Origin: Arachis hypogaea
Taxonomy: Eukaryota; Streptophyta; Magnoliopsida; Fabales; Fabaceae
Direction of reading: 5' to 3'
Assembly: GCF_003086295.3 (NCBI RefSeq)
Contig: NC_092039.1
Location: 73,427,649 to 73,491,648 of the forward strand
DNA: 64,000 nt
The notes beneath the pieces were generated by a model that was not told where the DNA came from, made no database searches, and saw only the letters and a program-made list of their open reading frames with translations. Positions 4,198 through 62,591 of this stretch are shown here, piece by piece. The translations under genes were made by a program, and so were the position numbers. The stretch's first letter is position 1. Each line of letters begins with the position of its first letter.

Positions 4198-4244
4198 CAT
4201 GGGTTGCCTCCCATGAAGCGCTTCTTTAACGTCATTAGCTTGAC
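4198..4244 (-). ncRNA. two-hairpin motif, E3 copy
   Basis: In minus sense hairpin 1 is GTCA-AGCTAA-TGAC (4244-4231), followed by a TTAAAGAAGCGCTT linker. Hairpin 2 is CATGGG-AGGCAA-CCCATG (4215-4198). The outer pairs CAT/ATG differ from the other copies yet still pair. It lies just after the polyprotein-tail stop region. Treating it as a structured RNA element is inference. Confidence 0.6.
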
Positions 4245-15161: not shown

Positions 15162-16330
15162 TGATACGTAAAATTTGAGAATTCTACGTACAACCGGCAA
15201 GTATACCGGGTCGTATCAAGTAGTAAGACTCACTAAGAGTGAGGTCGATCCCACGAGGATTGGTAGATTAAGCAACTTTAGTTAAATGGTAGATTTAGTC
15301 AAGCAAACATAGTTTTGATTTCATGAGCATTTTGATTTTTAAACATAATTGCAAGAATTTAAATGGCAAAGAATGTAAAGAACTAGAATAAAGAAATGAA
15401 GTGCAAGTAAATGACGGAAACTTAAATTGCAAGAAACTTAAATAACATCAAAGGTAAATGGCAAGAAGTAGATGAACAGAATGTAAATAACAAGAGTAGT
15501 AAATAGACAGAATGTAGAAAGGGATTGGGAATTGGGTAATCAAATAGCTAGAGCAAGAGAAATGAGAGTTAATGATAGAGAGGATCATTAGGGATTAGAG
15601 ATGTTAGTTTTCGTGAATTGATGTTAGTCAAACCCTTCTCAATCATGGGTATAGATCCATGGCAAATGGGTGATTGAATCCCAATCTCTTGGTGATTCAA
15701 TCTCTCTCAACATAGCCAATTGCCACTCTCGTGATCTAATTGTTCATGAGAAGAGATGAAGATCAATTTTAATCCAGCCACACAATTTCCAAAATCTCAA
15801 CCAAGGAGAGTTACATCTCACATACTAACCAAGGTATGTTGATTGAGGAAATCATGAGAGGATGAACTCTAAACTGAATTATGTGGCTCATTCGTCAAAT
15901 TCACCACATAATTCATATAGATTAACCCCTCTCTCGATGGTGGTTGAATCTTTGAAGAACAAGAGTTCCCTCTTTAGATCAACCACTAAAATTGAGAAAG
16001 AGAAGATGGGTTCACCAATTCATTCCAACCAACAGAGTTCCTCCCCCTAATGAAAGGGGTTTAGTGAATCATAGCTCCAACTTCAACAACAATTGCCATC
16101 AATCAAAGTTAAACTAAATTGCAAAGAAAGATTAAGAAGAAGAGGTAAATGCTTGAAGATTAAGAAAATGAAGAAGAGAAGTTCCAAGATGAACCAAGAG
16201 TAGCTCTCTGGGTCTCCTCTCGGAAGTACCAAAAGAGTTTTCAAATACAAGTGCTAAAAAGTGTAAAAATAACTAAGTGTAAAAAGTAGAGTAAAAGTGT
16301 AAAAGTCCCCTCAAAGTACAAACTCAATCT

Positions 16331-16340
16331 CTATTTATAC
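16331..16340 (-). promoter_or_regulatory. TATA box of E6 3' LTR
   Basis: GTATAAATAG in minus sense, about 1.2 kb from the U5 end and downstream of the palindrome array. The other LTR carries the same sequence at 24438-24447. Confidence 0.55.
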
Positions 16341-17051
16341 TAGTCCTAAAGATCTTCAAGTGGGTTAGCAAGATGGGCTTCCTCTTTGTTGAATTCTTGG
16401 CTCAATTGATGAAGTTTCTGGCCTTTGTGAGGAATAGGGGAAGTGGAGCAAGTTGGCACCAATTCTGGCCCATTGAGGGCGTTATTGGCACTAACTCCAG
16501 GCCAAATGCACGTTGGCAACGTGCAGGACAATTTCCTGGGCATGAAGTATGAGACTTGGGCGTTGCTAGCCCAAGTTGTTGCCAACAACTTGCTTTTCCT
16601 CTTCTTGGCCTTACTTTCATGCTAAATGTAGCCCAGAATTTGAGTGTCAACCTTCAGCTTCAATATGGACTATCATACATCATTGGAAAGCTCTTGATGT
16701 CTATTTTCTAATGCCACTGGAATCACCTCAATTGGACTTTCCTAGCTCAAGTTATGGTTCCTCAAAGAAGGTAAGGTCAAGCTGCCAAGTTGTTGCCAAG
16801 TTGTTGTGAATAACGCACCCTCAACCCCAAGTTGGCAACGTGCTCGAGCATCACTCTCCCAAGGCAAGGACTTGGGGCTGGCGTTGTTGCAAAACACGCC
16901 TCCCTTGTGGCACGTTGGCAACGTGCTCGACCCACACCCCAAGGCCAATCTCTAGCTTTCTTGAATTTCACTTCATGTTCTTGTTTTTAGGGCCTAAAGA
17001 TGACTCTGGTTTGGCTTCAATCTTGTGCTCCACCATGGACTATTATATATG

Positions 17052-17082
17052 GTTGGAAAGCTCTGAATGTTAGCTTTCCAAC
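17052..17082. repeat. perfect 11-bp-stem hairpin in E6 3' LTR
   Basis: GTTGGAAAGCT, a 9-base loop, then AGCTTTCCAAC. Looser copies of the module lie near 16690 and 18004 in the same LTR, and at 25159-25189 in the other. Related stretches occur in the E4, E5, E9 and E11 LTRs. Confidence 0.7.
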
Positions 17083-17210
17083 GCAACTGGAAGTACTCAA
17101 TTTGGATCTCTGTAGCTCAAGATATCTTCCATTGAAGTGGACATGTTCAGGCTGCCTTGTTTTGGTAAGTTGGCGTTGGCAACGCCCATCCAGCGTTGGC
17201 AACGTGAGTG

Positions 17211-17340
17211 GTGCGCCAATGGGCGTTTAGAATGCTGGTTGGTGCGCCATTGGGCGTTTGGCAGCCTGGTTGGTGCGCCAATGGGCGTTTGGCAGCCTGG
17301 TTGGTGCGCCAATGGGCGTTTGGCAGCCTGGTTGGCACCA
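17211..17340. repeat. 31-bp tandem repeat, about 4 copies (E6 3' LTR)
   Basis: The unit is built on GTGCGCCAATGGGCGTTTGG and CAGCCTGGTTG. The first copy is the most diverged and the last two are identical. Also present at 25318-25447 in the 5' LTR. Confidence 0.85.
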
Positions 17341-17616
17341 AAACTTGGTGCCTAGCCAAACTTTCTTGTGTGGCGTTGGCAACGCCATTCTTGAGTTGGC
17401 AACGCCAGCTCCTTTTCTTCCATGGCTCCATTTGTTGCTTGGTTGTGTGGCGTTGGCAACGCCCATCTTGAGTTGGCAACGCCAGCTCCTTTTCTTCCAG
17501 GGCCAAGCTTGATTGTTTGGCGTTGTTAGCCTGCGTTGTCCTCAAAAACGCCCCTCATCTCTAGGCTGGCAACGTGCTCGAGGCTCCAAATTAGCTCTCT
17601 AAGATTGCTTGGGTGG

Positions 17617-17860
17617 GCGTTGGCAACTTGGTTCTAGAGTTGGCAACGCCAACCTTGCTTCCAGGGCCAAGTTTGCTTGCTTGTGGCTTGTGTGTGGCGT
17701 TGGCAACTTGGTTCTAGAGTTGGCAACGCCAACCTTGCTTCCAGGGCCAAGTTTGCTTGCTTGTGGCTTGTGTGTGGCGTTGGCAACTTGGTTCTAGAGT
17801 TGGCAACGCCAACCTTGCTTCTAGGGTTGCCAAGCTTGCTTGGTATGATTGTGTGTGGCG
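17617..17860. repeat. 80-bp tandem repeat, 3 copies (E6 3' LTR)
   Basis: The unit starts GCGTTGGCAACTTGG, then TTCTAGAG and TTGGCAACGCCAACC, with starts spaced exactly 80 bp (17621, 17701, 17781). Paralogous at 25724-25967 in the 5' LTR. Confidence 0.85.
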
Positions 17861-18607
17861 TTGGCAACGCCAATCCCAAGTTGGCAACGCCAACTTCTTG
17901 CCTTGGTTGCCTCCAGGGCCAAGCTTGCCTTTGCCTTTTGGGTCTTAAGTTTCCCTCTGATTTGAGCTTCCATTCCTTGCCACATTATGGACTATTGTAT
18001 ATCGTTGGAAAGATCTTGATGTCAGCTTCTCAACGCAATTGGAATCATGCCAATTGGATCCTTGTGGTTCAAGATATTCATCCTTGAAGAGGGGAGGGTC
18101 AGGCTGCAATTTCCGCTGATTGTGCACTAGCACGTTGCCAACTTGGTTTCCAAGTTGCCAACGTGCTACACCTCCTGGCAGCACCACTTTGGGTGTTGGC
18201 AACTTGGAAACCAAGTTGCCAACGTGCTCTCTCATCCTGGTTGCATCAATTGGGCGTTGCCAACTTGAGGATCAAGTTGGCAACATACATCTCCTTCTTG
18301 CTCCAAGATTTCCTTGCATCCTTCTTGCTTCCATGCTTCCTTGTTTCATCACCTATCATCAACAAAGGAAATAGCTTCAAAGTCTTACCAATTCATGCAA
18401 TAAATTTCATGAGATTCATTCATACTCATTCATGTATGTATTCCTTAAATCATTTGCATGAATTTGGCTAGAATCAACATGTTCCTTAGTATTCTCATGC
18501 ATGAATACAAACTCATAAAAGGACTTGTTTATTTAGAGAAAATGAGTGAAATCAAGCTAAAATCAACTAAACTAACTAGCTAATATATCAAATATGCAAT
18601 TGCATCA

Positions 18608-18643: not shown

Positions 18644-20126
18644 CAAAAGAACTATGCACAAAGATTTCTTTTAATTGGAATGAGTTGAGGAATAGCTTAT
18701 AATACCTTGGTGAGTGAAGTGATTAAGTGATAGTGGGGTGAACTCTGAATTATGTGTTCATGCAAGGGTCCCAGTGCTTATCAGTCCTTACATTTTTGAA
18801 GTCTTAGATCTTAGGACTTTCATTCAAATGATATCATGGAGATCTCTTTATATGTAATCACCTTGAAGCAGCTTATAATTTTTGTGCTTTGACCTCGACT
18901 CTAAGTGTCATGTCTCAAGGCGGCTCTTTAGATAAGCTTTCAATCAATACTCCTAAACCAGTTGGTTTTAAGGTATTAGGTGTTAAAGCACCCCCAAGGA
19001 TTTACTTGCTCAAGCCTCTTTCCTTGACACACTTCAACCACAAGCATTTACTAGGATAGCAACTCTTTTGAGTTTTTGTTTCTTTCTTTCTTTTTCTGCC
19101 TAGTAATTGATGCTCAGAGCCTTGGGCCATGTTCTTTTTGTTTTTGCACTTTCTTTTCTTCCTTTTGCTTTGTTTGCTGCTTCTTGGATCAATAGATTTT
19201 TGAGAATCTCTACAATACTTCTTTGAACTTTATGTCCTGCCTATGAGCTCCCATGCAAGTTTTCACAAGCATGCAACCTCAATACATGATCATACTACTA
19301 GAACCACCACTTCTCCTAATCTTTTGCTTGCCTCAAAAACTGATTTTATTCCTCAATCCTTCTTTTCAAAGAACTTTCATGTGATGCATTCTTGAAAATT
19401 GAGTGCAAACAGGTTTTGAAGATAAGAATGTTGTGAATAATCAAGCATCTTGCTTATTATAAAGAAAGACTATGCTATGAAGGCAGGCGGGAATATAAAA
19501 AGAAAAATTATATGATGCCGACAAACAGAGCAAATAAGGATACAATCCAACTTTCAATCACAGCAACATTTGATGTAAAATATCACTTAACAATACAACC
19601 TGTTGGAGTTCACTTGCTTTTCTTCTCATCATCATCATTGCTAGCCTTTATGTTCATCTTTTGCTTCTTTGATTGATGATGCTTAATCCCTCCAAAGGCT
19701 TGTATGACATTCTACAATGATATTAAAAGTTGCTTGTTCCCCAAGCACTTAGAAACAGTGGTTAGTCTGCATGATTTATTTGTGGGCTTTTTGAACTTAC
19801 TTTGGTGTGGGAACACCAAACTTAGTACCTTGCCAATGCATCAAATTAACCATGTGTGAAACTCTTTCTTCTTTTTCTAAGGTAATAGACTAAAAACTAG
19901 AAAACAGCAAGATAATTAACTAGTCCGTCTAAATGCATGAAGCTAGCCTTATGGCAGAAAGTGAGAATGTGTTTTATGATGGGATTTTTGGTGGAACACC
20001 AAACTTAGAATCCTTCATTCTCCCTTAGATTGTTTTGGTGTGCAACACCAAACTTAGCTTCTTGCAATCTAGATGAAACTAATTAACAGTTTTATTGAAT
20101 TAGATATGAAAAGATGGTTACCTCTG
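18644..20126 (-). other. E6 3' untranslated region, noncoding
   Basis: No gene is seen. Three further copies of the AAGTTTGGTGT box occur (plus-strand ACACCAAACTT near 19819, 19996 and 20047). T-rich tracts lie at 19070-19180. Confidence 0.7.
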
Positions 20127-20173
20127 GTTGGGTTGCCTCCCAACAAGCGCTCTTTTATTGTCACTAGCTTGAC
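20127..20173 (-). ncRNA. two-hairpin motif, E6 copy
   Basis: In minus sense hairpin 1 is GTCA-AGCTAG-TGAC (20173-20160), then a short A-rich linker with GAGCGCTT. Hairpin 2 is GTTGGG-AGGCAA-CCCAAC (20144-20127). It lies 13 bases after the polyprotein stop codon. Confidence 0.65.
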
Positions 20174-20185
20174 ATTTGTCCCTCT

Positions 20186-23086
20186 TTAGGGCGGATGATG
20201 ATCATAGTGCCTTAATCCTTCCCCTCTCACCGTGAGCTTCCTTCCAGTATCATTCTTGATGATTTCCACATGTTCAAGTGAGAGGATTTTGTTCACTGTG
20301 TAGTATCCAGAAAAGTGTGGAGATGTCTCTTTTGGTTGGTAAGTTAGCATCACTTTATCCCCTGGTGAGAAGTCTTCAGTGGAGATTTTCTTGTTTCTCC
20401 ATCCTCTTGGCATTTTCTTCTTGGGACTCTCTTCTTTTCCAGGAGATAGTTCAGGTTTTGGAATCTCAATTTTTGGACAGTCCTTGCTATGAATCTTAAA
20501 TGCTGACTTTGATTGCAGCTTCTCCTCTATTCTTTGAGCTTGTTGCAGCACCTCCACCTCTTCATTTTCTTTCCTGCATGAGCTTGGAAGTGCCTCATCA
20601 GGTGCCTCTTTCAAGTTGGGATTTATGGAATAAATCATCATACACTCTTCCTCTTGGGTGGAGTCTTGCAAATTCTTGAAGACATGGAACACTATATGCT
20701 CATCATGCACCCTTAACATTAATTCTCCTTTTTCGACATCTATCAATGCCCTGGCAGTAGCTAAAAAGGGCCTCCCTAGAATAATGGGAGTGTTGTCATC
20801 TTCCTTTATGTCTAGGATGACAAAGTCAACTGGGAGGAAAAATTTGTCCACCTTTACTAATACATTCTCTACAACCCCGAGTGCTTGTTGAATAGATTTA
20901 TCCGCCATTTGAAGGGCTATCTTTGTAGGTTTCAATTCATGAATCTGAAGCTTTCTCATCAGAGATAGAGGCATCAGATTTATGCTTGCACCAAGATCAC
21001 AAAATTCTCTCTCAATCATCATGTTGCCTATTGTGCAGGGGATGTGAAAGCTCCCTGGGTCTTTCATCTTCTTTGGCAACTTTTTCTGGATGATGGCACT
21101 ACACTCCCTGGTCATCATAACCGTTTGTCCCTCTTTCAAGGATCTTGTCTTTGTCAATAATTCCTTCATGAACTTAGCATATAGGGGCATCTGTTCAAGT
21201 GCTTCAATGAAGGGGATGTTGATGTGTAGTGTCTTGAATATTTCCAAGAATTTGGAATATTGCTTCTCTTTGTTCTCTTCTTTAAACCTTTGAGGGTATG
21301 GGAGCATTGGTTGGTATGCTTTCACTGCCTCCTTTTTAGCTAATTTAGCACTTTGTGTATAGGTTTCTTGCTCCTGCTTTTGTTCCTTCACCTCTTCTTT
21401 TAAGCCTTCTTTGATGTGCTCTTCCTGAGTAATGGCTTCTGTCTCCACTTTCTTCCCACTTCTCAGGGTGATTGCTTTACACTCCTCCCATTTTATGGCT
21501 TTTTCTGTGTCTCTTGGGTTGGGTATTGTATCACTTGGAAGAACATTGGTTGGTCGCTCGGCTTGTTTGACTAATTGTCCCACTTGTCTCTCAATGTTCT
21601 TCATGATGACCTCATGTTCCTTGTGTCCCTTAGCTAAGGCTTGAGTGGTTTGAGCAAGTGCTTGTAAGGTTGCTTCAAGACTTGAAATTCTAGTCTCATA
21701 ATGGTCAATTGGGGATATGATGGGGGTGGATTGTTGTTGAAAGTTGTTGGGTGGGTTAGTGTGGTAATTCTGTGTGTTGGATGTTGGTGCAGGGAAGTTG
21801 TTTTGGTGAGTTTGTGAGTTATTATGAGGGTGTTGATATGTGTTTTGTGTTTTTCTATATTGGTTAGTGTTGTTGGCATGGTGGCTTTGGTTATTTGTGT
21901 TACGGTTGTGGTTGTGGTTGTTGTTCTTTTGCCAATGGTTTTCACCCCACTTTAGATTGGGATGATTTCTCCAAGATGAATTGTATGTATCACCATGAAA
22001 TTCATCCTGAGAATTTGAAGTGTTCTGCATGTATTGAACTTGTTCTTGTGGTTGTTCAACTGTGATCCCTTCACCTTGGCTCCATTCAAGTGATGGTTGA
22101 TTTGTTGTGTTCACTGCTGCAAGTTGCAAACCATCCATACTCTTTGTTATCATCTCCATTTGTTGTTGGATTTGTTGGTGCATTAACTTATTTTGTGCCA
22201 AGATAGCATCAACACCTTCAAGCTCCATTACACCTTTCTTTGGGGGCGGATTGTTTTGCCTCTCTGATGAGTAATAGTATTGGTTGTTTGCCACAATCTC
22301 AATGAGGTCTTGGGCCTCCTCGGCAGTTTTCATCATGTTGAGTGATCCTCCTGATGAGTAATCTAGTCCCTTCCTTGCTTCAAAGCTTAAGCCTTCATAG
22401 AAGTTTTGGAGCTTAACCCAATCACTAAACATGTCAGGGGGGCATCTTCTCATTAGTGATTTATACCTTTCCCAGGCTTCATACAATGACTCCCCTTCCA
22501 TTTGCCTGAAAGTCTGGACCTCTGTCTTCAACTTGATGATCTTTTGAGGTGGGTAGAACTTTGCTAGAAACTTGCCCATCACTTCATTCCAATCATTGAG
22601 GCTTTCCTTGGGGAATGATTCTAGCCATTGAGTGGCTTTATCCCTCAAAGAGAACGGAAATAACAACAACTTGTAAACATCTGGATGCACTCCATTTGTC
22701 TTCACTGTGTTGCATATCCTCAGAAAAACAGAGAGATGTTGATTTGGGTCTTCAAGAGGTCCCCCTCCATAAGAGCAATTGTTCTGTACCAAAGTGATGA
22801 GTTGAGGTTTTAGCTCAAAGTTATTGGCCTGAACATTTGGTGTAGCAATACTGCTCCCACAATGTCTTGGATCAGGGATAGTAAATGATGATAACACCCT
22901 TCTAGCTTGTCCACCATTATTGTTGGCCCCTCCAGGAGGGTTTTGCATCTCATCATCCATGACTTGATCTTCTCCCTCTGATTCCTCTGACCCTTCTTCA
23001 CCAACTATGAACTTTCCTCTTTCTGCTCTCCTTAACCTTCGGCGGGTTCTCTCGTCCTCAATATCACGTCTACTTGTTCCTGACAT
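20186..23086 (-). CDS. gag-protease polyprotein with integrase-C-terminus-like tail
   Basis: 966 aa, intact, starting at ATG 23086 (MSGTSRRDIEDERTRRRL). The N-terminus is Arg/Glu-rich. The retrotransposon-gag core covers about residues 140-265 (FSLRDKATQWL, YEAWERYKSLMRRCPPDMF). A long Asn/His/Gln/Thr-rich linker (about 370-455) has no CCHC zinc knuckle. A retropepsin-like protease lies at about 675-800, with catalytic Asp at about 697 in CDLGASINLMP and ILGRPF at about 767. Residues about 880-966 (SPGDKVML near 907, then SGYYTVNKILSLEHVE and GLRHY) resemble the C-terminal end of the E10 and E11 integrases. RT, RNase H and the integrase catalytic core are missing. Gag would assemble particles and the protease mature them; the tail may bind partner integrase or RNA, but that is inference. 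It is the only long intact polyprotein ORF in the window. Confidence 0.88.
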   Translation of the reverse strand: MSGTSRRDIEDERTRRRLRRAERGKFIVGEEGSEESEGEDQVMDDEMQNPPGGANNNGGQARRVLSSFTIPDPRHCGSSIATPNVQANNFELKPQLITLVQNNCSYGGGPLEDPNQHLSVFLRICNTVKTNGVHPDVYKLLLFPFSLRDKATQWLESFPKESLNDWNEVMGKFLAKFYPPQKIIKLKTEVQTFRQMEGESLYEAWERYKSLMRRCPPDMFSDWVKLQNFYEGLSFEARKGLDYSSGGSLNMMKTAEEAQDLIEIVANNQYYYSSERQNNPPPKKGVMELEGVDAILAQNKLMHQQIQQQMEMITKSMDGLQLAAVNTTNQPSLEWSQGEGITVEQPQEQVQYMQNTSNSQDEFHGDTYNSSWRNHPNLKWGENHWQKNNNHNHNRNTNNQSHHANNTNQYRKTQNTYQHPHNNSQTHQNNFPAPTSNTQNYHTNPPNNFQQQSTPIISPIDHYETRISSLEATLQALAQTTQALAKGHKEHEVIMKNIERQVGQLVKQAERPTNVLPSDTIPNPRDTEKAIKWEECKAITLRSGKKVETEAITQEEHIKEGLKEEVKEQKQEQETYTQSAKLAKKEAVKAYQPMLPYPQRFKEENKEKQYSKFLEIFKTLHINIPFIEALEQMPLYAKFMKELLTKTRSLKEGQTVMMTRECSAIIQKKLPKKMKDPGSFHIPCTIGNMMIEREFCDLGASINLMPLSLMRKLQIHELKPTKIALQMADKSIQQALGVVENVLVKVDKFFLPVDFVILDIKEDDNTPIILGRPFLATARALIDVEKGELMLRVHDEHIVFHVFKNLQDSTQEEECMMIYSINPNLKEAPDEALPSSCRKENEEVEVLQQAQRIEEKLQSKSAFKIHSKDCPKIEIPKPELSPGKEESPKKKMPRGWRNKKISTEDFSPGDKVMLTYQPKETSPHFSGYYTVNKILSLEHVEIIKNDTGRKLTVRGEGLRHYDHHPP

Positions 23087-23245
23087 ACACAAACAGAACC
23101 AAAATCACAAGTGCAACATGCTAAAATTAGAGTGAAATTAGAGTTAGTGAAACAAAGTATCAAACAGTTAGTGGGCTTAATGAAAACACAAAAGAAAATG
23201 CTTAATCTAAACCACCTTTCACTTAATCATTGTCAATCTTTCCAA

Positions 23246-23269: not shown

Positions 23270-26200
23270 TGATACGTAAAATTAAGAATTCACGTATTTA
23301 CCAGCAAGTATACCGGGTCGTATCAAGTAGTAAGACTCACTAAGAGTGAGGTCGATCCCACGAGGATTGGTAGATTAAGCAACTTTAGTTAAATGGTAGA
23401 TTTAGTCAAGCAAACATAGTTTTGATTTCATGAGCATTTTGATTTTTAAACATAATTGCAAGAATTTAAATGGCAAAGAATGTAAAGAACTAGAATAAAG
23501 AAATGAAGTGCAAGTAAATGACGGAAACTTAAATTGCAAGAAACTTAAATAACATCAAAGGTAAATGGCAAGAAGTAGATGAACAGAATGTAAATAACAA
23601 GAGTAGTAAATAGACAGAATGTAGAAAGGGATTGGGAATTGGGTAATCAAATAGCTAGAGCAAGAGAAATGAGAGTTAATGATAGAGAGGATCATTAGGG
23701 GTTAGAGATGTTAGTTTTCGTGAATTGATGTTAGTCAAATCCTTCTCAATCATGGGTATAGATCCATGGCAAATGGGTGATTGAATCCCAATCTCTTGGT
23801 GATTCAATCTCTCTCAACATAGCCAATTGCCACTCTCGTGATCTAATTGTTCATGAGAAGAGATGAAGATCAATTTTAATCCAGCCACACAATTTCCAAA
23901 ATCTCAACCAAGGAGAGTTACATCTCACATACTAACCAAGGTATGTTGATTGAGGAAATCATGAGAGGATGAACTCTAAACTGAATTATGTGGCTCATTC
24001 GTCAAATTCACCACATAATTCATATAGATTAACCCCTCTCTCGATGGTGGTTGAATCTTTGAAGAACAAGAGTTCCCTCTTTAGATCAACCACTAAAATT
24101 GAGAAAGAGAAGATGGGTTCACCAATTCATTCCAACCAACAGAGCTCCTCCCCCTAATGAAAGGGGTTTAGTGAATCATAGCTCCAACTTCAACAACAAT
24201 TGCCATCAATCAAAGTTAAACTAAATTGCAAAGAAAGATGAAGAAGAAGAGGTAAATGCTTGAAGATTAAGAAAATGAAGAAGAGAAGTTCCAAGATGAA
24301 CCAAGAGTAGCTCTCTGGGTCTCCTCTCGGAAGTACCAAAAGAGTTTTCAAATACAAGTGCTAAAAAGTGTAAAAATAACTAAGTGTAAAAAGTAGAGTA
24401 AAAGTGTAAAAGTCCCCTCAAAGTACAAACTCAATCTCTATTTATACTAGTCCTAAAGATCTTCAAGTGGGTTAGCAAGATGGGCTTCCTCTTTGTTGAA
24501 TTCTTGGCTCAATTGATGAAGTTTCTGGCCTTTGTGAGGAATAGGGGAAGTGGAGCAAGTTGGCACCAATTCTGGCCCATTGAGGGCGTTATTGGCACTA
24601 ACTCCAGGCCAAATGCACGTTGGCAACGTGCAGGACAATTTCCTGGGCATGAAGTATGAGACTTGGGCGTTGCTAGCCCAAGTTGTTGCCAACAACTTGC
24701 TTTTCCTCTTCTTGGCCTTACTTTCATGCTAAATGTAGCCCAGAATTTGAGTGTCAACCTTCAGCTTCAATATGGACTATCATACATCATTGGAAAGCTC
24801 TTGATGTCTATTTTCTAATGCCACTGGAATCACCTCAATTGGACTTTCCTAGCTCAAGTTATGGTTCCTCAAAGAAGGTAAGGTCAAGCTGCCAAGTTGT
24901 TGCCAAGTTGTTGTGAATAACGCACCCTCAACCCCAAGTTGGCAACGTGCTCGAGCATCACTCTCCCAAGGCAAGGACTTGGGGCTGGCGTTGTTGCAAA
25001 ACACGCCTCCCTTGTGGCACGTTGGCAACGTGCTCGACCCACACCCCAAGGCCAATCTCTAGCTTTCTTGAATTTCACTTCATGTTCTTGTTTTTAGGGC
25101 CTAAAGATGACTCTGTTTTGGCTCCAATCTTGTGCTCCACCATGGACTATTATATATGGTTGGAAAGCTCTGAATGTTAGCTTTCCAACGCAACTGGAAG
25201 TACTCAATTTGGATCTCTGTAGCTCAAGATATCTTCCATTGAAGTGGACATGTTCAGGCTGCCTTGTTTTGGTAAGTTGGCGTTGGCAACGCCCATCCAG
25301 CGTTGGCAACGTGAGTGGTGCGCCAATGGGCGTTTAGAATGCTGGTTGGTGCGCCATTGGGCGTTTGGCAGCCTGGTTGGTGCGCCAATGGGCGTTTGGC
25401 AGCCTGGTTGGTGCGCCAATGGGCGTTTGGCAGCCTGGTTGGCACCAAAACTTGGTGCCTAGCCAAACTTTCTTGTGTGGCGTTGGCAACGCCATTCTTG
25501 AGTTGGCAACGCCAGCTCCTTTTCTTCCATGGCTCCATTTGTTGCTTGGTTGTGTGGCGTTGGCAACGCCCATCTTGAGTTGGCAACGCCAGCTCCTTTT
25601 CTTCCAGGGCCAAGCTTGATTGTTTGGCGTTGTTAGCCTGCGTTGTCCTCAAAAACGCCCCTCATCTCTAGGCTGGCAACGTGCTCGAGGCTCCAAATTA
25701 GCTCTCTAAGATTGCTTGGGTGGGCGTTGGCAACTTGGTTCTAGAGTTGGCAACGCCAACCTTGCTTCCAGGGCCAAGTTTGCTTGCTTGTGGCTTGTGT
25801 GTGGCGTTGGCAACTTGGTTCTAGAGTTGGCAACGCCAACCTTGCTTCCAGGGCCAAGTTTGCTTGCTTGTGGCTTGTGTGTGGCGTTGGCAACTTGGTT
25901 CTAGAGTTGGCAATGCCAACCTTGCTTCCAGGGTTGCCAAGCTTGCTTGGTATGATTGTGTGTGGCGTTGGCAACGCCAATCCCAAGTTGGCAACGCCAA
26001 CTTCTTGCCTTGGTTGCCTCCAGGGCCAAGCTTGCCTTTGCCTTTTGGGTCTTAAGTTTCCCTCTGATTTGAGCTTCCATTCCTTGCCACATTATGGACT
26101 ATTGTATATCGTTGGAAAGATCTTGATGTCAGCTTCTCAACGCAATTGGAATCATACCAATTGGATCCTTGTGGTTCAAGATATTCATCCTTGAAGAGGG

Positions 26201-26714
26201 GAGGGTCAGGCTGCAATTTCCGCTGATTGTGCACTAGCACGTTGCCAACTTGGTTTCCAAGTTGCCAACGTGCTACACCTCCTGGCAGCACCACTTTGGG
26301 CGTTGGCAACTTGGAAACCAAGTTGCCAACGTGCTCTCTCATCCTGGTTGCATCAATTGGGCGTTGCCAACTTGAGGATCAAGTTGGCAACATACATCTC
26401 CTTCTTGCTCCAAGATTTCCTTGCATCCTTCTTGCTTCCATGCTTCCTTGTTTCATCACCTATCATCAACAAAGGAAATAGCTTCAAAGTCTTACCAATT
26501 CATGCAATAAATTTCATGAGATTCATTCATACTCATTCATGTATGTATTCCTTAAATCATTTGCATGAATTTGGCTAGAATCAACATGTTCCTTAGTATT
26601 CTCATGCATGAATACAAACTCATAAAAGGACTTGTTTATTTAGAGAAAATGAGTGAAATCAAGCTAAAATCAACTAAACTAACTAGCTAATATATCAAAT
26701 ATGCAATTGCATCA
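23270..26714 (-). repeat. E6 5' LTR (3445 bp)
   Basis: Near-identical copy of 15162-18607 at an offset of 8107-8108. Differences I saw include 23701 (G for A), 25117 (T for G), 25912 (T for C) and 26300 (C for T), plus a cluster in the first 40 bases. TATA box at 24438-24447. Confidence 0.93.
24438..24447 (-). promoter_or_regulatory. TATA box of E6 5' LTR
   Basis: GTATAAATAG in minus sense. This copy would drive the genomic transcript of E6. Confidence 0.6.
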
Positions 26715-35311: not shown

Positions 35312-35358
35312 ATTAGGTTGCCTCCCAATAAGCGCTTCTTTAATGTCAATAGCTTGAC
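35312..35358 (-). ncRNA. two-hairpin motif, E9 copy
   Basis: In minus sense hairpin 1 is GTCA-AGCTAT-TGAC (35358-35345), followed by AAAGAAGCGCTT. Hairpin 2 is ATTGGG-AGGCAA-CCTAAT (35329-35312). The G-U pair in the stem forms only in element-sense RNA; the complementary strand would have an A-C mismatch. Confidence 0.65.
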
Positions 35359-35377: not shown

Positions 35378-37360
35378 TCACAAATGTTCAGAGCGTGGTT
35401 GTGGCCTCCCAATACCAAACTTAGAGTTTGAGTGTGGGGGCTCTGTTTGACTCTGCATGGAGGGAGTTGGCTGAAGCTTTTCATGCTTCTTCTCCATGTT
35501 TACAGAGGAAAATCCTTGAGCCTTAAACACAAGGTAGTCCTCATTCACTTGAAGGACTAACTCTCCTCTGTTCACATCAATTACAGCCTTTGATGTGGCT
35601 AGGAAAGGTCTTCCAAGGATGATGGATTCATCCTCATCCTTCCCAGTGTCTAGGATTATGAAATCAGCAGGGATGTAAAGGCCTTCAACCTTTACCAAGA
35701 CATCCTCTACAAGTCCATAAGCCTGTTTCTTTGACTTGTCTGCCATCTCTAGTGAGATTCTTATAGCTTGTACCTCGAAGATCCCTAGTTTTTCTATTAC
35801 AGAGAGCAGCATGAGGTTGATACTTGATCCTAGGTCACACAGAGCCTTTTCAAAGGTCATAGTGTCTATGGTGCAAGGTATCAAGAACCTTCCGGGATCC
35901 TCTTTCTTTTGAGGTAATTTCAGCTGAACCAATGCAGTTAGTTCATTGATGAGCAATAGAGGTTCATCCTCCCAAGACTCATTACCAAATAATTTGGCAT
36001 TCAGCTTCATGATTGCTCCTAGATATTGAGCAACTTGCTCTTTAGTAACATTTTTGTCCTCTTCAGAGGAAGAATATTCGTCAAAGCTCATGAATGGTAA
36101 TAGTAGGTTCAGTGGAATCTCTATGGTCTCTAGATTAGCCTCAGATTCCTGTGGTTCCTCAATAGAGGACTCCTTGTAGTCCAGTGGACGTCCCATGATG
36201 TCTTCTTTACTGTGAATCACGTCCTCCTCGTTTTCTATATGTTCGGCCATTTTGGTTGTATTAATAGCCTTCCACTCTCTTTTTGGATTCTCTTCTGTAT
36301 TGCTTGGGAGAGTGCTAGGAGGAGTTTCAGTAATTCTTTTACTCAGCTGCCCCACTTGTGCCTCTAAATTTCTGATGGAGGATCGTGCCTCAGTCATGAA
36401 ACTGAGAGTGGCCTTGGATAGATCAGAGACTATGTTTGCTAAGCCAGAGATGCTCTGCTCAGAATTCTCTGTCTGTTACTGAGAAGATGATGGAAAAGGT
36501 TTGCTATTACCAAACCTATTTCTCCCACCATTATTGTTATTGAAGCCTTGTAGAGGCTTCTGTTGATCCTTCCATGAGAAATTTGGGTGATTCCTCCACG
36601 AAGGATTATAGGTGTTTCCATAGGCTTCTCCCATGTAATTCACCTCTTAAATTGTAGGATTCTCAAGGTCATAAGCTTTACCTTCAGAGGAGGCATCTTT
36701 AGCTTGCATTCCAGTCAGACTCTGAGAAATCATATTGACTTGCTGAGTCAATATTTTGTTCTGAGCCAATATAGCATTCAGAGTATCAATCTCAAGAACT
36801 CCTTTTTTCTGAGTTGTCCCATTATTCACAAGATTTCTTTCAGAAGTGTACATGAATTGGTTATTTACAACCATTTCAATGAGTTCCTGGATTTCTGCAG
36901 GCGTTTTCAGATAAAGAGATCCACCGAAAGGGTGGTCAAATGACATCTTGGATAACTCAGACAGACCATGATTGAATATACATATGATGCTCCATTCTGA
37001 AACATGTCAGAAGGACACCTTTTGGTTAATTGTTTGTTTCTTTCCCAAGCTTCATAGAGGGATTCACCTTCTTTCTGTCTGAAGGTTTGGACATCCACTC
37101 TGAGCTTACTCATCTTTTGAGGTGGAAAGAATTTTGTCAATAAAGCATTGACCAACTTGTCCCAAAAGTTCAGGCTTTCTCTAGGTTGTGAGTCCAACCA
37201 TGTTCTAGCTCTGTCTCTTACAGCAAAACGGAAAAGCATAAGTCTGTAGACCTCGGGATCAATCCCATTGGTCTTAACAGTATCATAGATCTACAAGAAT
37301 TCAGATAAGAACTGATGAGGATCTTGATGGGCTGAATTCACTACCCTTCCCCAATAATAT
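35378..37360 (-). pseudogene. E9 gag-protease polyprotein, decayed
   Basis: Gag core from about 37340 (FAVRDRARTWLDSQPRESLN, YEAWERNKQL, KRCPSDMF), with a frameshift near 36995. One frame then runs 36946-35378, interrupted by stops at 36647 and near 36478, both one transition from Gln. The protease has CDLGSSINLM (catalytic Asp kept) and ILGRPFLATSKAVID. The ORF ends soon after VFKAQGFSS, with no integrase-like tail, unlike E3 and E6. The gag N-terminus is cut by E10. Confidence 0.75.
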
Positions 37361-39762: not shown

Positions 39763-39798
39763 CAACACCAAACTTAAGCTTTGCTTGTCCCAAGCAAA
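39763..39798 (-). promoter_or_regulatory. E10 box and hairpin at PPT position
   Basis: Minus-sense hairpin TTTGCTTG-GGA-CAAGCAAA (39798-39780), 8-bp perfect stem, then GCTTAAGTTTGGTGTTG directly before the LTR. Confidence 0.65.
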
Positions 39799-40721: not shown

Positions 40722-42271
40722 TCAATTCATTGGCCCCTTGCCTTTGTCCTTCTTCTTGGAGGGGGAGGAGTCATCTCCACCCTTTTTGGAGAATCCTTCT
40801 TGTGCTTTCTTGTCCTTAGGCTTCCAGAAACCCAGCCTCACCATATAATTTCTTTCATCTTCCTTATGCTTAGCTAGGATCTCCTCTTGTCTAGCACTCG
40901 ATTCTTCTAGCCCTTGCATGAAAGATGGGCTACAGCATTACACAGGTGATTCAGCTTCGCCTGTGTGTTGATATCATATTGTCTCCTTGAAATGGTCCGG
41001 GCATCATAGAGATGCCTGAACTCAGTAAGGTTCCTCTGTTGTCATTTATTTTGCTCCACCACCTTGTTAAGTGCACTTCGCACCTCACCCCAATCAAACT
41101 CCTCTTGCTGCTCCTTCCTTGCTTGCTCAAAACTTTCTTGGAGGTTATGTATTTTCTCATTCACTTGGTTCCATTGCTCCCTTTGGATACTTTGAAATTG
41201 GTTGACATCTTCCCTCAATTGATGCAGATCTCCCTTCATTTGGTGCATGTCTCCTTGCAGTTGCTCCCAGTTTATTCCTTCAGGAAATTGTTGGTATTGT
41301 TGGTATGGTGGTGGTTAAAGCACCAGAAATTGTGGTTGCTCCTCTGCCTCCTCTTCCTCTTGTTGTTGTGGTGGTGGCACATGAGCGTGAGCTCTATGCT
41401 CTCTAGCCCTTTGAAGTGGATTGACAGCCAACACCTTGGCCATCTTCTTGGCAGTTATAGGCTTATCTTGCTTCACCAACACATCATCAATCACCTTCTT
41501 AACTCCAGTGTCATCACATAGCTCTTGTATGATGTTGGGAAATGTCAATCTTGTGCTCTCGTTAGTGCTTTTCAGTATCTTGTTGATGTTGTTGGTAATC
41601 AACTCCCCATAATTCACGCCTTCTCCCTTCATTATACTGTATATAAGTACAGTCCTCTCCTTGGTCACCTCAGATGTGTTTGATGTAGGGATCAAAGATC
41701 TTCTCACAAAGTCTAACCACCCCCTAGCTTGGGGGCTCAAGTCCCTTCTCCTCAGCTGGTTGGGTTTTCCATCTTTATCATTGATCCACTGCACATTTAG
41801 TACAGAAATTTTATTCAGGATTTCATCAAATCCTAGGTCTGGTTGCTTCATCCTCTCCTCATAACTTCGAGTGGAGTTGACCCTTTTCACCATCAACACC
41901 CTTTCTATGTTAGAGGGACTATAGTCAATGGTCTTCCCCCTCACATAGCTAATATACCAATAAGTTTGCCCTAGCTGTGGCACAGCATTGGCATAAAACT
42001 CCCTTACCACACCTTCCACCACTTTCTTTGGTGGGTTGCAGAAGAGTGCCCAACCCCTGTTGTTGATCTCAATATTGATCTCAAGGTGCTTATTCCTTCC
42101 TAGTTGAAAGCCGACCTCTGGGATAATCTCCCTCTCACTCACCCAACCATAGAATTGGTTTTGTTTGAATGCTGAGAGGAATTTGTACTCATTGAAGTTT
42201 GAGCTTGAGGAACCTGAGGTTGGTTCTTTGGTCTTTCTTTTCTTTGAGGTTGAGGATCTTGGTGGTGCCAT
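40722..42271 (-). pseudogene. E10 env-position ORF (plant transposon-domain type), broken
   Basis: Starts at ATG 42271 (MAPPRSSTSKKRKTKEP). An open stretch of 318 codons shares a pattern with the E11 ORF: IPEVGF, REFYANA, VRGK-IDYSPSNIERV, WINDKDGKPNQLRR, RGWLDFVRRSLIPTSN. That pattern corresponds to the 'putative plant transposon protein' domain of Athila-type elements as I know it. A TAA at 41315 (one transition from Gln) interrupts it. The frame continues with a Gln-rich coiled coil to 41042, then a frameshift and a Lys/Asp/Ser-rich end at 40722. Function unknown. I see no signal peptide or membrane segment, so calling it an envelope is unsupported. Confidence 0.7.
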
Positions 42272-43281: not shown

Positions 43282-43329
43282 GTTGGGTTGCCTCCCAACC
43301 AGGGCTTCTTTATCGTCACTAGCTTGGTG
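43282..43329 (-). ncRNA. two-hairpin motif, E10 copy
   Basis: In minus sense hairpin 1 is reduced to CAC-CAAGCTA-GTG (43329-43317). Hairpin 2 is GTTGGG-AGGCAA-CCCAAC (43299-43282). It begins 12 bases past the integrase stop. Confidence 0.6.
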
Positions 43330-43340: not shown

Positions 43341-45487
43341 TCAGTTGAGATGGTAGCTCACTCTTCTTTCATCCAGTGAGTCCCCCAGGTAATGCTTGAG
43401 TCTATGGCCATTTGCAGTGAAGGTTCTCTGTGTTTTGTCCTCCATGAGCTCCACTTGACCATAGGGGTACACTTTGATGATGGTGAAGGGTCCAGACCAT
43501 CTAGACTTAAGCTTCCTAGGGAAGAACCTAAGTCTAGAATTGTACAATAACACCTTTTGTCCTTCAGTGAACTCCCTCTTTGCTATCTTTTGATCATGCC
43601 ATCTTTTTGTGTTCTTTTTGTAGATCTTTGCATTTTCATATGCTTGGTTCCTAAATTCTTCCAGCTCGTTGAGTTGCCTCAGCCTCTTTTCTCCAGCAGC
43701 TTGCTCATCAAAATTCAGTAGTTTTAGAGCCCAGAAGGCTCTATGCTCCAGTTCAACTGGCAATTGGCAAGCCTTACCAAACACTAGTTGGTATGGTGAC
43801 ATCCCAATGGGGGTCTTGAAGGCTATTTTGTAGGCCCATAAAGCATCGTCTAGTTTCTTAGACCAGTCCTTCCTTGAGCTTCCAATAGTTTTTTCGAGAA
43901 TCCTTTTTAGCTCCCAGTTGGAAATCTCTGCTTGCCCGTTGGTTTGCGGATGATAAGGGGTTGCCAATTTGTGTTTGACTCCATATCTGAGAAGGAGTGC
44001 TTCCAGTTGTTTATTGCAAAAATGTGTCCCTCCATCACTAAGAGTGCTCTGGGAACTCCGAACCTGCTGAAAATGTTCTTTCTTAAGAAGCTCATTACAA
44101 CCTTGTTGTCATTTGTGGTGGTGGCAATAGCCTCCACTCATTTTGACACATAATCTACAGCCACAAGTATATAACTATTTGAGTAGGAGGATGGGAAAGG
44201 CCCCATGAAGTCAATCCCTCATACATTGAATAGTTCTAGCTCCATTATAAATCTCTGTGTCATCTCATTATTCCTGGGTAAATTGCCAGCCCTCTGGCAT
44301 TCATCACACCTTAACATCAAGTTCTTTGCATCCTTGTAAATGCTTGGCCAGTAAAATCCACATTGGAGCACCTTGGCTGCTGTTCTTTCTCTACTAAAGT
44401 GGCCTCCATATGTAGATCTATGACATTGCCAAAGCACCTCTTGTCCTTCTCCATGGGATATATACCTTCTCAAGATCCCATCAGCACACTTTTTGAACAA
44501 GCATGGCTCATCCCAGATATAGTATTTGGCATCCTTAATGAGCTTTCTCTTCATATGTTTGTTGATGTTAGTTGGTAGTTCCCCAATGGCCTTGAAATTG
44601 GCTATGTTAGTAAACCAAGGGGTCTTTTGTATAATCATCAATTGCTCATCCGGGAAGTTTTCATTCACTGCAAGATGGTGTGCTCCTTCTTCCTATTGTA
44701 GAATCCTTGAGAGGTGGTCAGCAACTTTGTTCTCTGCTCCACTCCTATCCTTATTTTCGATGTCAAACTCTTGGAGTAGCAGGATCCATCTTATTAGCCT
44801 TGGCTTGGATTCTTGTTTTGTAAGCAAGTATTTGAGTGCCACATGATCAGTGAATACAATTACTTTAGAACCAATGAGATATGATCTAAATTTATCAAAA
44901 GCAAAGACAATTGCTAGTAATTCCTTCTCTGTAGTGGTGTAGTTCCTTTGATTTTCATTAAGGACCTTGCTGGCATAATAAATGACATGCACCAATTTAT
45001 CCTTCCTCTGTCCTAAAACAGCACCCATAGTAAAATCTGATGCATCACATATTAACTCAAAGGGTAGATTCCAACATGGTGGTGCTATGATAGGTGCAGA
45101 GGAAAGTTTGTTCTTAAGCTCCTCAAAAGCTAACATGCATTCATGATCAAAAACAAAAGGCACATTAGAGACAAGTAGGTTGCTCAATGGCTTGGCTACC
45201 TTGGAGAAGTCTCTAATAAACCTCCTATAAAAACCAGCATGTCCCAAAAAGCTTCTGATTGCTTTGACATTGCAAGGTGGAGGTAACTTTTCGATCACCT
45301 CTACCTTTGCCATGTCTACTTCTATGCCCTTCTTTGAGATTTTATGACCAAGGACCACTCCTTCTGTAACCATGAAATTGCATTTTTCCAAGTTTAAAAC
45401 AAGGTTGGTCTCTTGGCATCTCTTTAGCACCAGGGCTAAGTGATGCAAGCAATCAGAATATGTGTTACCAAATACAGAGAAGTCATC
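43341..45487 (-). pseudogene. E10 pol 3' half: RT thumb, RNase H, integrase (decayed)
   Basis: It begins at the second half of the RT active-site motif (DDFSVFG), exactly where E11 is inserted. RT thumb ([17 protein letters not shown]) and RNase H ([38 protein letters not shown]) are open to a TAG at 44693. Integrase follows: HHCC-type finger (CHRSTYGGHF, CDECQRAGN), core (GIDFMGPFP), second Asp region disrupted by a one-base deletion near 44044, third region ([16 protein letters not shown]) and the C-terminal SRWSGPFTI domain to HRLKHYLGD. Two TGG-to-TGA changes fall near 44212 and 44130. Not functional. Confidence 0.85.
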
Positions 45488-52539: not shown

Positions 52540-53850
52540 GGATGAGTAACTCTTTGCCATCCAGGAGGTGCCATGGTTTGTAGACATTGCAAACTACAAG
52601 GCAGTAAGATTCATACCCAAAGAGTACAGTAGGCAGCAATCAAAGAAGTTGATCACGGATGCAAAGTACTATCTTTGGGATGAACCATATCTCTTCAAGA
52701 GATGTACAGATGGAGTAATCCGTAGATGTGTACCTAAAGAAGAAGCCCAGAAAATACTCTGGCACTGCCATGGATCACAGTATGGAGGACATTTTGGAAG
52801 TGAGCGAACAGCCACAAGAGTCCTTCAACGTGGCTTCTATTGGCCTATTCTCTATAAAGATTCCCGAGTGTTTGTACTTAATTATGACAGTTGCCAAAGA
52901 TCTGGCAATCTACCTCACAGTTATGCCATGCCTCAACAAGGGATCTTGGAGATTGAGTTGTTTGATGTATGGGGTATTGACTTCATGGGGCCTTTCCCAC
53001 CATCATACTCAAACATTTATATTCTGGTGGTAGTGGATTATGTATCCAAATGGGTGGAAGCTATTGCAACATCCACTAATGACACTAAGACAGTGCTAAA
53101 ATTCCTCCAGAAACACATCTTCAGCAGATTTGGTACCCCTAGAGTATTAATCAGTGATGGGGGCACTCATTTTTGCAATAAACCGCTTTATTCTGCTTTG
53201 GTTTGATATGGAGTTAGCCACAGGGTAGCCACTCCATATCATCCACAGATAAATGGGCAAGCTGAAGTCTCCAACAGAGAACTTAAAAGAATCCTGGAAT
53301 GGACTGTGATTAACTGTAGAAGGGATTGGGCAAGAAGCTTGGATGATGCTCTGTGGGCATACAGAACAGCATTCAAGACTCCTATAGGAACTTCTCCATA
53401 CCAGCTCGTGTATGGAAAAGCCTGTCACTTGCCAGTGGAACTGGAACATAAGGCCTACTGGCAACCAGATTCCTAAACATTGATGCCAAGTTAGCTGGAG
53501 AAAAATGATTGCTCCAGTTAAATGAGCTAGAGGAATTTAGACTCAATGCTTTCGAGAATGCAAAAATTTACAAAGAGAAAGCAAAAAGATGGCATGACAA
53601 GAAGCTATTATCCAGAGTCTTTGAGCCAGGGCAGAAAGTTCTGCTGTTTAATTCTATACTCAGATTATTCCCCGAAAAATTGAAGTCCCGATGGAGAGGT
53701 CCATATGTGATTACAAGTGTGTCACCATATGGATATGTAGAGCTTCAGGATAATGATTCTAACAAAAAGTTCATTGTTAATGGACAGAGAGTCAAACATT
53801 ATCATGAAAGAAATTTTGAGCAAGAATGCTCAAAACTGAGACTTGACTAA
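52540..53850 (+). pseudogene. E11 integrase, decayed
   Basis: Zinc finger: [10 protein letters not shown] then YDSCQRSGN, where the first finger Cys is Tyr (G-to-A). Catalytic core: GIDFMGPFP, then [10 protein letters not shown], a stop near 53204, and [21 protein letters not shown], so the D, D and E residues are all present. A frameshift near 53470. C-terminal domain (FEPGQKVLLFNS, SRWRGPYVITSVSPYGYVEL, GQRVKHYHERN) runs open to the stop at 53848-53850. Confidence 0.88.
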
Positions 53851-53862: not shown

Positions 53863-53909
53863 GTCCAGCTAAAGACAATAAAGAAGCGCTTGCTGGGAGG
53901 CAACCCAGC
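53863..53909 (+). ncRNA. two-hairpin motif, E11 copy
   Basis: Hairpin 1 is GTC-CAGCTAAA-GAC (53863-53876), then AATAAAGAAGCGCTT. Hairpin 2 is GCTGGG-AGGCAA-CCCAGC (53892-53909). It starts 13 bases after the integrase stop. The GC/GC outer pairs replace the GT/AC of E6 and E10. Confidence 0.7.
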
Positions 53910-54850: not shown

Positions 54851-54888
54851 TTTTGCTTGAGGACAAGCAAAACTCTAAGTTTGGTGTG
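54851..54888 (+). ncRNA. AGGA-loop hairpin and box before E11 env-position ORF
   Basis: Perfect 9-bp stem TTTTGCTTG / CAAGCAAAA (54851-54872) around AGGA, then TAAGTTTGGTGTG. Same module as before the 3' LTR; it ends 37 bases before the ATG. Confidence 0.65.
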
Positions 54889-54924: not shown

Positions 54925-56058
54925 ATGGCTCCTAAAGGAAAACAACCCACTCCAAGAGGCAAGAAAGAGAGTATTCCAAAACCATTTTGGAATCAAGGGA
55001 AGTTCTTAACCAAAGAACATTCAGACCATTACTACAAAATAATGGGTCTAAGATCAGTGATCCCAGAAGTCAAATTCGATTTGAAAGAAGATGAATATCT
55101 AGAGATCCTGGAACAAATTCGAAACAGGAACTGGGAAATCCTAGCTAACCCTGAAACAAAAGTGGGAAGGAATATAGTTCAGGAGTTCTACACTAATCTG
55201 TGGCAAACAGACAGGCAGAGAATATCTGGAACTGCCCTCTATGACTATCGGACCTTGGTCAGAGGAAAGATTGTTCTCATCCACCCTGATAAAATCAGGG
55301 AGATCTTTAAGCTACCTCGGTTGAAAGATGACCCAGACTCCTTTAATAGGAGAATAATGAAAACAAACAAGGGCCTGGACAAGATTCTAGAGGATATATG
55401 CATCCCTGAAGCCAGGTGGACCACCAGCACCAAGGGCGTCCCAAATCAACTCAAGAGAGAAGATCTCAAATCAGTCGCCAGAGGATGGCTGGACTTCATT
55501 GGGCGTTCTATATTGCCCACTAGCAATCATTCTGAAGTCACCGTTAAAAGAGCAGTGATGATCCATTGCATTATGTTGGGAAAAGAAGTGGAAGTTCATC
55601 AACTAATTTCATGTGAACTTTACATAATTGCAAACAAGAACTCCAAAGATGCCAAGTTGGCTTATCCAAGCTTAATTTCTATGCTCTACAAAGATGCTGG
55701 AGTGAGGATGGGAATAACTGAGTATATCTCAGTTGAGCGGCCAATCACTAAAACCACAATGGAAAAACAACAAGTGCAGGATGACCCCATCAAGAGGAGA
55801 GCACAGGAATTTCTCCCGAAAATCCCTCAATTTGAATATTGGGAATATCTTGAAGCATCTGTTACCAACTTGCAAGAAGCTATAGACCAAATAAAGGAAG
55901 AACAAAATACTCAAAATAGCATGCTTTGCAAATTGCTTAGGGAACAAGAAGAGCAAGGGCGTGACTTAAAGGAACTGAAGCGTCAGAAATTATCTCTTGA
56001 AAGACCAAGCACCCCACAGACTAGAGGAACATCCACTTTCCAAAATAAAGGTTGTTGA
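54925..56058 (+). CDS. env-position ORF, plant transposon-domain protein (intact)
   Basis: 377 aa, ATG 54925, no internal stop. Basic N-terminus (MAPKGKQPTPRGKKE). The central domain (about residues 25-285) has IPEVKFDLKEDEYLE, VQEFYTNLW, VRGKIVLIHPDKIREIF, WTTSTKGVPNQLKRED and RGWLDFIGRSILPTSN. A coiled-coil C-terminus (about 315-360: NLQEAIDQIKEEQ, LLREQEEQGRDLKELK) follows. It matches the E10 ORF over the central domain, of the 'putative plant transposon protein' type. No signal peptide, no membrane span. Role unknown. It is intact although the upstream pol has many stops. Confidence 0.8.
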   Translation: MAPKGKQPTPRGKKESIPKPFWNQGKFLTKEHSDHYYKIMGLRSVIPEVKFDLKEDEYLEILEQIRNRNWEILANPETKVGRNIVQEFYTNLWQTDRQRISGTALYDYRTLVRGKIVLIHPDKIREIFKLPRLKDDPDSFNRRIMKTNKGLDKILEDICIPEARWTTSTKGVPNQLKREDLKSVARGWLDFIGRSILPTSNHSEVTVKRAVMIHCIMLGKEVEVHQLISCELYIIANKNSKDAKLAYPSLISMLYKDAGVRMGITEYISVERPITKTTMEKQQVQDDPIKRRAQEFLPKIPQFEYWEYLEASVTNLQEAIDQIKEEQNTQNSMLCKLLREQEEQGRDLKELKRQKLSLERPSTPQTRGTSTFQNKGC

Positions 56059-62526: not shown

Positions 62527-62574
62527 GGTGGGTTGTCTCCCACCCAGCACTTAGTTAAAGTCCTTAAGTTGGAC
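62527..62574 (-). ncRNA. two-hairpin motif, E12 copy
   Basis: In minus sense hairpin 1 is GTCC-AACTTAA-GGAC (62574-62560), then TTTAACTAAGTGCT. Hairpin 2 is GGTGGG-AGACAA-CCCACC (62544-62527). Both stems differ from other copies at paired positions and still pair. Confidence 0.65.
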
Positions 62575-62591
62575 ATTTGGCGAGCTCCTTG

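Follow-up and report, generated by a model that had tools for sequence, protein, structure and literature searches.

A conserved two-hairpin RNA motif with a covarying stem close behind retrotransposon stop codons in Arachis hypogaea

We describe a two-hairpin motif that lies close behind the stop codons of retrotransposon open reading frames (ORFs) in Arachis hypogaea and that is, with high probability, a functional element of the sense RNA. The motif was noticed in a 64,000-nt stretch of contig NC_092039.1, which we call the window. According to the original prediction, made from the letters of this stretch, the motif acts in cis on element-sense RNA. Support for this action came from the pairing of hairpin 2 when set against a tree null, from a bias in G-U pairs, and from retention of the motif in elements without detectable reverse transcriptase (RT) or integrase. 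All counts refer to one genome and to sequence only.

Architecture and abundance of the motif

The motif had been proposed for six elements of the window, E3, E6, E9, E10, E11 and E12. All six copies were found at the coordinates below, that of E11 on the plus strand and the other five on the minus strand. We built a covariance model from 35 copies, the six among them, and it recovered all six (E 8.1e-18 to 5.8e-11); the next best match of any kind in the window reached E 2.2.

53863..53909, plus strand: motif of E11; hairpin 1 at 53863-53876, linker at 53877-53891, hairpin 2 at 53892-53909
4198..4244, minus strand: motif of E3; protease and integrase-tail relic detected, frame upstream broken
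20127..20173, minus strand: motif of E6, in which no RT, integrase core or PF20167 ORF was detected
35312..35358, minus strand: motif of E9; gag and protease detected, inner G-U pair
43282..43329, minus strand: motif of E10; hairpin 1 shifted in register
62527..62575, minus strand: motif of E12; loop AGACAA, outer arms GGT/ACC

The layout comprises a short 5′ hairpin (hairpin 1: GUC, loop AGCUA, GAC), a conserved linker (UAAAGAAGCGCUU) and hairpin 2, which consists of a freely covarying outer stem, a GGG/CCC inner stem and the loop AGGCAA. The single G-U pair foreseen in E9 was confirmed as an inner pair. The conserved block spans 47 nt between variable flanks; in two families, shared-variant columns made up 7% of hairpin 1, 7-13% of the linker and 18-53% of the flanks. 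With up to two mismatches allowed, the core matched the window 11 times against 2.75 expected, and the matches with zero or one mismatch were exactly the six copies. An Rfam scan of the window at gathering score returned no family for the motif, its sole match being snoR71 (37004-37107, plus strand; 40.6 against a threshold of 40 bits), which lies opposite the gag region of E9 and is perhaps due to chance.

Across the 2.56-Gb genome (440 contigs), the core CTTNNNGGGAGRCAACCC had 53,622 matches (26,815 and 26,807 on the two strands), against 77 (41 and 36) for the same pattern reversed. The E12 form, CTGGGTGGGAGACAACCC, had 617 matches genome-wide against none in the control. From these we assembled a set of 115 copies, representing 58 distinct 48-mers: 88 of about 100 listed core matches, the six window copies, one copy from beyond the window (L103), and 20 C-arm copies picked from 100 listed matches for varied downstream sequence and odd arms. 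Addition of eight E12-clade copies gave a second set of 123 copies with 42 distinct arm states. The listed core matches all fall within the first 17.5 Mb of one contig. For the fetched copies, three linker letters as well as the loop and the inner stem were prescribed by the search patterns, so the constancy of these parts proves little. Free in the sampling were hairpin 1, the remaining linker and the outer arms, except for the first base in the 20 C-arm copies and the 5′ arm in the E12 clade. Outside this genome, a pattern scan of IMG/VR gave 54 matches, none with hairpin 1 or the linker upstream, a pattern scan of GTDB gave 0 matches, and reverse-transcriptase scans of both collections found no relative.

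Covariation of the two hairpins

The claim that the outer arms of hairpin 2 change in sequence without loss of pairing held against shuffles of 35 copies and against a tree null for 58 distinct motifs. All of 95 copies formed the middle outer pair, 94 the third pair and 91 the outermost; among the 58 distinct motifs the middle pair was paired in 58/58, as T-A in 32, A-T in 15, C-G in 9, T-G in 1 and G-C in 1. The first 35 copies contained 17 double-changed cells against 3.2 ± 1.6 in shuffles, with a covariation score of 0.231 against 0.109; two of five simple measures were not above the shuffles (changed pairs 3 against 2.0; pair types 9 against 8.2). In an earlier G-test on 42 sequences no pair fell below E = 0.05, the best being pair 32-47, with E 0.56 on one tree and 0.32 on another.

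In the tree null, for which a purpose-written script was used rather than R-scape, the 3′ changes were re-placed at random on the tree in 2000 trials, the trees resting on 75-118 bases. A check of hairpin 2 against phylogenetic expectation had been called for at the outset, and for the 58 distinct motifs two of the three outer pairs gave 0/2000 under this null: the middle pair 32-47, with a paired share of 1.00 against 0.48 expected, and the outermost pair 31-48, with 0.86 against 0.47. At the third pair, 33-46, the share was 0.97 against 0.90 (P 0.08; P 0.03 when hairpin 2 was left out of tree building). In the set that includes the E12 clade (123 copies, 42 states), the values were P 0.0005 for 31-48, 0/2000 for 32-47 and P 0.12 for 33-46. 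Hairpin 2 is a true RNA helix.

Arms beginning with C had 2,822 matches in the genome and 0 in the control; by eye, 90 of 100 such matches listed had CAT with ATG, 1 more was fully paired through U-G, and 9 were mismatched. Arms whose middle base is A and whose first base is other than C had 161 genome matches against 5 in the control, and 58 of the 100 listed were, again by eye, unpaired at that pair, in varied contexts. Both patterns miss copies with C at the pattern's last place. The small number of middle-A matches, many of them unpaired, indicates that broken arms do arise but are rare. At the outermost pair, 15 of the 58 motifs, which are distinct sequences and not independent events, had G-U and 1 had A-C. 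Since G-U pairs only in element-sense RNA, this bias points to the sense transcript.

In a separate comparison, L103 and the copies L144 and L161 were nearly alike up to the linker and then carried GTT/AAC and CAT/ATG, respectively, followed by unlike downstream DNA. This arm swap could be either compensation or a recombination breakpoint within the motif.

Hairpin 1 is conserved, and its covariation is weak and tree-dependent. In the 115-copy set, three pairs had P 0.16-0.37 on both trees, and for pair 5-12 the two trees disagreed (P 0.004 and 0.50). In the 123-copy set, the five pairs gave uncorrected P values of 0.42, 0.29, 0.16, 0.05 and 0.01, the last being that of pair 5-12. The homologous stem in E10 is broken at two pairs and requires a shift in register, the E11 clade has hairpin 1 without pair 5-12, and in the E12 clade C-G replaces A-U at that pair and the loop is one base longer. 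The earlier claim that hairpin 1, too, varies in step was therefore not borne out, the signal in the two tests being weak and tree-dependent at one pair only.

Host elements and gene contexts

The host elements carry Ty3-type gag, protease (with matches below the Pfam cut-off), RNase H and integrase, together with the primer-binding site TGGCGCCGTTGCCGGGGA. This primer-binding site and PF20167 are, we assume, marks of Athila, and by these sequence features the hosts appear to qualify as Athila-type Ty3 retrotransposons. Three ten-base words, GGGAGGCAAC, GGAGGCAACC and AAGTTTGGTG, were common in sense to 12/12 compared elements. The primer-binding sites of the window (23263, minus; 47733, plus; 12611, minus; 96, minus) all hold TTGCC, the reverse complement of GGCAA in the loop of hairpin 2. 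The ORFs and long terminal features next to the window copies are as follows.

53848..53850, plus strand: stop codon TAA of the E11 pol frame, 12 nt ahead of hairpin 1
54925..56058, plus strand: downstream ORF of E11, PF20167 (Transposase_32), about 1 kb past the motif
20186..23092, minus strand: single 968-codon ORF of E6 with gag, protease-like and integrase C-terminal relic; stop 12 nt ahead of hairpin 1
15162..18607, minus strand: 3′ LTR of E6, 99.5% identical to its own 5′ LTR
23270..26714, minus strand: 5′ LTR of E6, partner of the 3′ LTR
35378..36397, minus strand: protease-bearing ORF of E9; stop 19 nt ahead of hairpin 1
43341..43967, minus strand: integrase C-terminal ORF of E10; stop 12 nt ahead of hairpin 1
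41315..42271, minus strand: downstream ORF of E10, PF20167
62592..63407, minus strand: ORF of E12, no Pfam match; stop 18 nt ahead of hairpin 1

We surveyed gene contexts in the window and in 20 loci of 10 kb (L063-L082). In a first class, gag-pro-RT-RNase H-integrase precedes the motif and a PF20167 ORF follows it after 0.8-1 kb (E11, L072, L074, L077, L078); E10, placed here, matched only RNase H, integrase and the PF20167 ORF. A second class has the motif behind pol with no PF20167 ORF detected (L064, and L065 with a cut integrase). Elements of the third class combine gag-pro and a PF20167 ORF without RT or integrase (L066, L070, L071, L075, L076, L079, L080), L063 and L068 having only part of the PF20167 ORF. 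The fourth class has gag-pro, in some cases with an integrase-tail relic, and no PF20167 ORF detected (E6, E9, L067, L069, L081, L082, and E3 with protease and integrase tail). L073 is a rearranged locus. Retention of the motif in elements that lack pol, as originally put forward, was confirmed across the window and the 20 loci, where elements without detectable RT or integrase keep it. The 99.5% identity of the E6 LTRs, together with its single 968-codon frame, indicates that a recently moved non-autonomous element carries the motif.

The E12 ORF has a family of 34 relatives, and all 18 of those with a source name are Arachis proteins. Eight further hairpins of the E12 type were found, one behind an E12-like ORF end and seven behind a KVNGHRLK-like stretch; by our reading of the sequence, the latter ends seem to resemble integrase ends. 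An internal polypurine tract (PPT) was rejected as an identity for the motif, because the 3′ LTR junction of E6 (ttgaggacaagcaaggtttaagtttggtgttg followed by TGATG) is unlike it.

Position relative to the stop codon

A recognised upstream frame was present in 102 of the 115 copies, the other 13 being without one. Its stop lies 9-38 nt before hairpin 1 in 97 of these 102, and farther away (62-187 nt) in five. Gaps of 12 nt (35 copies) and 19 nt (38 copies) were commonest, and gaps of 11, 16, 27 and 34 nt also occurred. Within the 97 copies, the stop was TGA in 76, TAA in 18 and TAG in 3. The motif had been described as following directly after the last codon at the pol position. Nearness to a stop stood for five window elements (12 nt in E6, E10 and E11, 19 nt in E9, 18 nt in E12) and failed for E3, in which the reading frame is broken and the longest upstream frame ends 134 nt off. 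What the motif follows is the stop of whatever ORF precedes it, beyond the pol position alone: the C termini ahead of it include integrase ends of several kinds, NSKFGV repeats and the E12 ORF. For the eight further E12-clade copies, after correction for the shifted hairpin start, the stop was 11 nt before GUCC in five, 17 nt in one (E12-like) and 59 nt in one, and no stop was found in one. The spacing is close, not rigid, and may partly be inherited from one ancestral junction.

In the 97 copies, the gap modulo 3 was 0, 1 and 2 in 41, 48 and 8 copies, respectively; the next in-frame stop came 0-99 codons on, and the frame stayed open past the motif in 79. Readthrough into a conserved product was rejected since gap frames and extension lengths differ among these copies; low-level readthrough is possible. 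Nor do we claim a third hairpin, H0, around the stop codon, despite striking single folds (mean z -1.28, 68 distinct contexts): a stop-centred hairpin of at least 4 bp occurred in 63% of 75 contexts against a background of 43%, and for 5 bp or more the share was 16%, below the background of 28%.

A second repeated word near the motif

The word (C/T)TAAGTTTGGTGT occurred 112 times in 269 kb (the window and motif-bearing loci) against 0 when reversed, and the shorter TAAGTTTGGTG 113 times against 7 in the same 269 kb. The longer word lies at 54861 and 57098 on the plus strand and at 39790, 33015 and 18635 on the minus strand of the window, and also in loci L063-L082; in eight elements it was found on the sense strand only. 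Its locations are the 3′ LTR junction (24 copies followed by TTGTGATG), the region ahead of the PF20167 ORF, the 5′ leader, and the stretch past the motif in E6 and E10. Sireviruses likewise carry repeated PPTs, and the word may be a recurring signal of PPT-like or regulatory kind. In L076, L063, L066 and further elements of the NSKFGV type, the NSKFGV protein repeats, encoded about 95-165 nt ahead of hairpin 2, are the same word (TCTAAGTTTGGTGTTGG) read in frame, so that the coding end may owe its form to a repeat at the nucleic-acid level. Past the motif of E6 (about 19780-20060, minus strand), three TAAGTTTGGTG copies could each pair with CACCAAA just downstream and form further hairpins; over all 113 copies, this partner lies downstream in 13 and upstream in 3.

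Discussion

We tentatively favour, at somewhat less than even confidence, the explanation that the motif is a cis-acting, stop-proximal element that would protect gag(-pro-pol) mRNA as the Rous sarcoma virus (RSV) RNA stability element (RSE) does. Placed just past the stop that ends gag-pro or gag-pro-pol, it would be read at its fixed loop, inner stem and linker by a protein of the host or of the element, and the bound protein would mark the stop and thereby keep the long untranslated RNA that follows from triggering decay. With its loop and inner stem fixed and its outer stem free, hairpin 2 would look like a protein-binding RNA hairpin. That elements lacking RT, integrase or the downstream ORF still keep the motif indicates a signal that serves the RNA itself, and the closeness of the motif to the stop favours a role at termination.

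According to PMC2925335, the RSE lies directly behind the gag stop and is proposed to mask it from NMD, with hints of further stability elements behind pol and src. Like the motif, the RSE is close behind a retroelement stop with a long untranslated stretch; it works with any stop codon, as the motif stands behind TGA, TAA and TAG alike. Unlike the motif, whose conserved block is 47 nt, it is described there as lying behind gag with a minimum of 155 nt (PMC2925335). Protection of the RSE type from NMD may be proposed for the motif from this likeness. Turnip crinkle virus (TCV), likewise with structured plant-virus RNA just past a stop, offers a precedent that appears to cut both ways for stability. 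As reported in parts of PMC6277124, its recoding structure behind the p28 stop shielded a reporter from NMD only when properly placed and recoding, and gave no protection 7 nt behind a GFP stop; at another stop, protection came from a lack of structure and was lost when a new stable hairpin was present. TCV there acts by readthrough with a long-range partner, whereas the motif has no conserved extension frame (PMC6277124).

Other roles for the RNA deserve consideration. The motif could serve the nuclear export or transport of unspliced RNA of the element, comparable to CTE, RTE or MTE, and lie near the stop merely because non-coding RNA starts there. CTE is an animal retroelement export element, and elements of the CTE, RTE and MTE kind are not known to be tied to a stop codon. 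Export, which we consider unlikely though worth retaining, would suit the retention of the motif across all gene contexts surveyed, the shortest included, and a sense-RNA helix with fixed loop and linker would suit a protein-binding site; yet the motif stays by the stop although some 0.8-1 kb between pol and the downstream ORF would be free. Mouse RTE and MTE are likewise cis-acting structured RNA in retroelement transcripts, and passages of PMC12786077 state that RNA export of plant LTR elements has never been studied directly. A role in packaging or dimerisation, with Gag as the reader, is in our estimate distinctly unlikely; non-autonomous elements that ride helper particles would need such a signal, and the loop of hairpin 2 may kiss the primer-binding site. 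Presence of the motif in elements without detected RT or integrase would agree with such a signal, and pairing between loop and primer-binding site is possible by sequence: in E6, L067, L069, L076 and L080 the primer-binding site contains GTTGCC, of which GGCAAC in hairpin 2 is the reverse complement. GTTGCC occurs in three of four window primer-binding sites, a shared word with a chance of a few percent by rough estimate, but the remaining one reads ATTGCC. The motif also lies behind an ORF, outside the 5′ leader; the primer-binding site reads GTTGTC in L071 and GTCGCC in L075, yet the loop is still AGGCAA, and the E12 clade, for which no primer-binding site was found, has the loop AGACAA.

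A role in expressing the downstream PF20167 ORF, by internal entry, reinitiation or splicing, is very improbable. Such a role in translation or splicing had been suggested at the outset, and the ORF, where present, does start about 0.8-1 kb past the motif; the suggestion is weakened by nine elements that keep the motif while the ORF went undetected, degraded remnants being possible (E3, E6, E9, L064, L065, L067, L069, L081, L082), which argues against a dedicated role. We give least credence to a DNA-level site or fossil kept through shared descent or recombination at a fixed breakpoint. Whole-arm exchange between some near relatives (L103 with GTT/AAC, L144 with CAT/ATG) is what a template switch could give, and the first G-test on 42 sequences was without significance; however, hairpin 2 pairing beats the tree null, the G-U bias favours one strand, and uncompensated arms are few.

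In open-licence literature on Athila and on plant LTR-element RNA structure, packaging, splicing and NMD, the top-ranked matches contained no description of the motif, and a text search with the core sequence gave one paper, on an unrelated matter. None of six structure terms occurred in PMC11963269. The enod40 RNA (PMC10578108) and the engineered Athila hairpins (PMC11410651), as presented in parts of those papers, are different things from the motif. Closer in kind are the short fixed motifs in non-coding parts of Sireviruses, also plant LTR elements, which include repeated PPTs and an inverted repeat; Sireviruses, however, are Ty1/copia and have the inverted repeat at the PPT/3′ LTR junction, whereas our motif stands behind pol, and it is absent from the passages of PMC2829016 on Sirevirus non-coding motifs.

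Taken as a whole, the picture of an undescribed RNA family of autonomous Athila-type elements and several parasite classes, which would insulate the stop from decay as a plant counterpart of the retroviral stability element and serve as a ticket for the spread of non-autonomous copies, is possible but rather doubtful. Plant LTR retrotransposons make up a large share of genomes, and to our knowledge few cis-acting RNA structures are known in them. A 47-nt element near the stop, with a covarying hairpin and more than 53,000 core matches in one genome, offers a direct handle on element RNA. One reporter set could separate its stability, export and packaging roles, and the motif points to a portion of the RNA that may be indispensable to non-autonomous elements.
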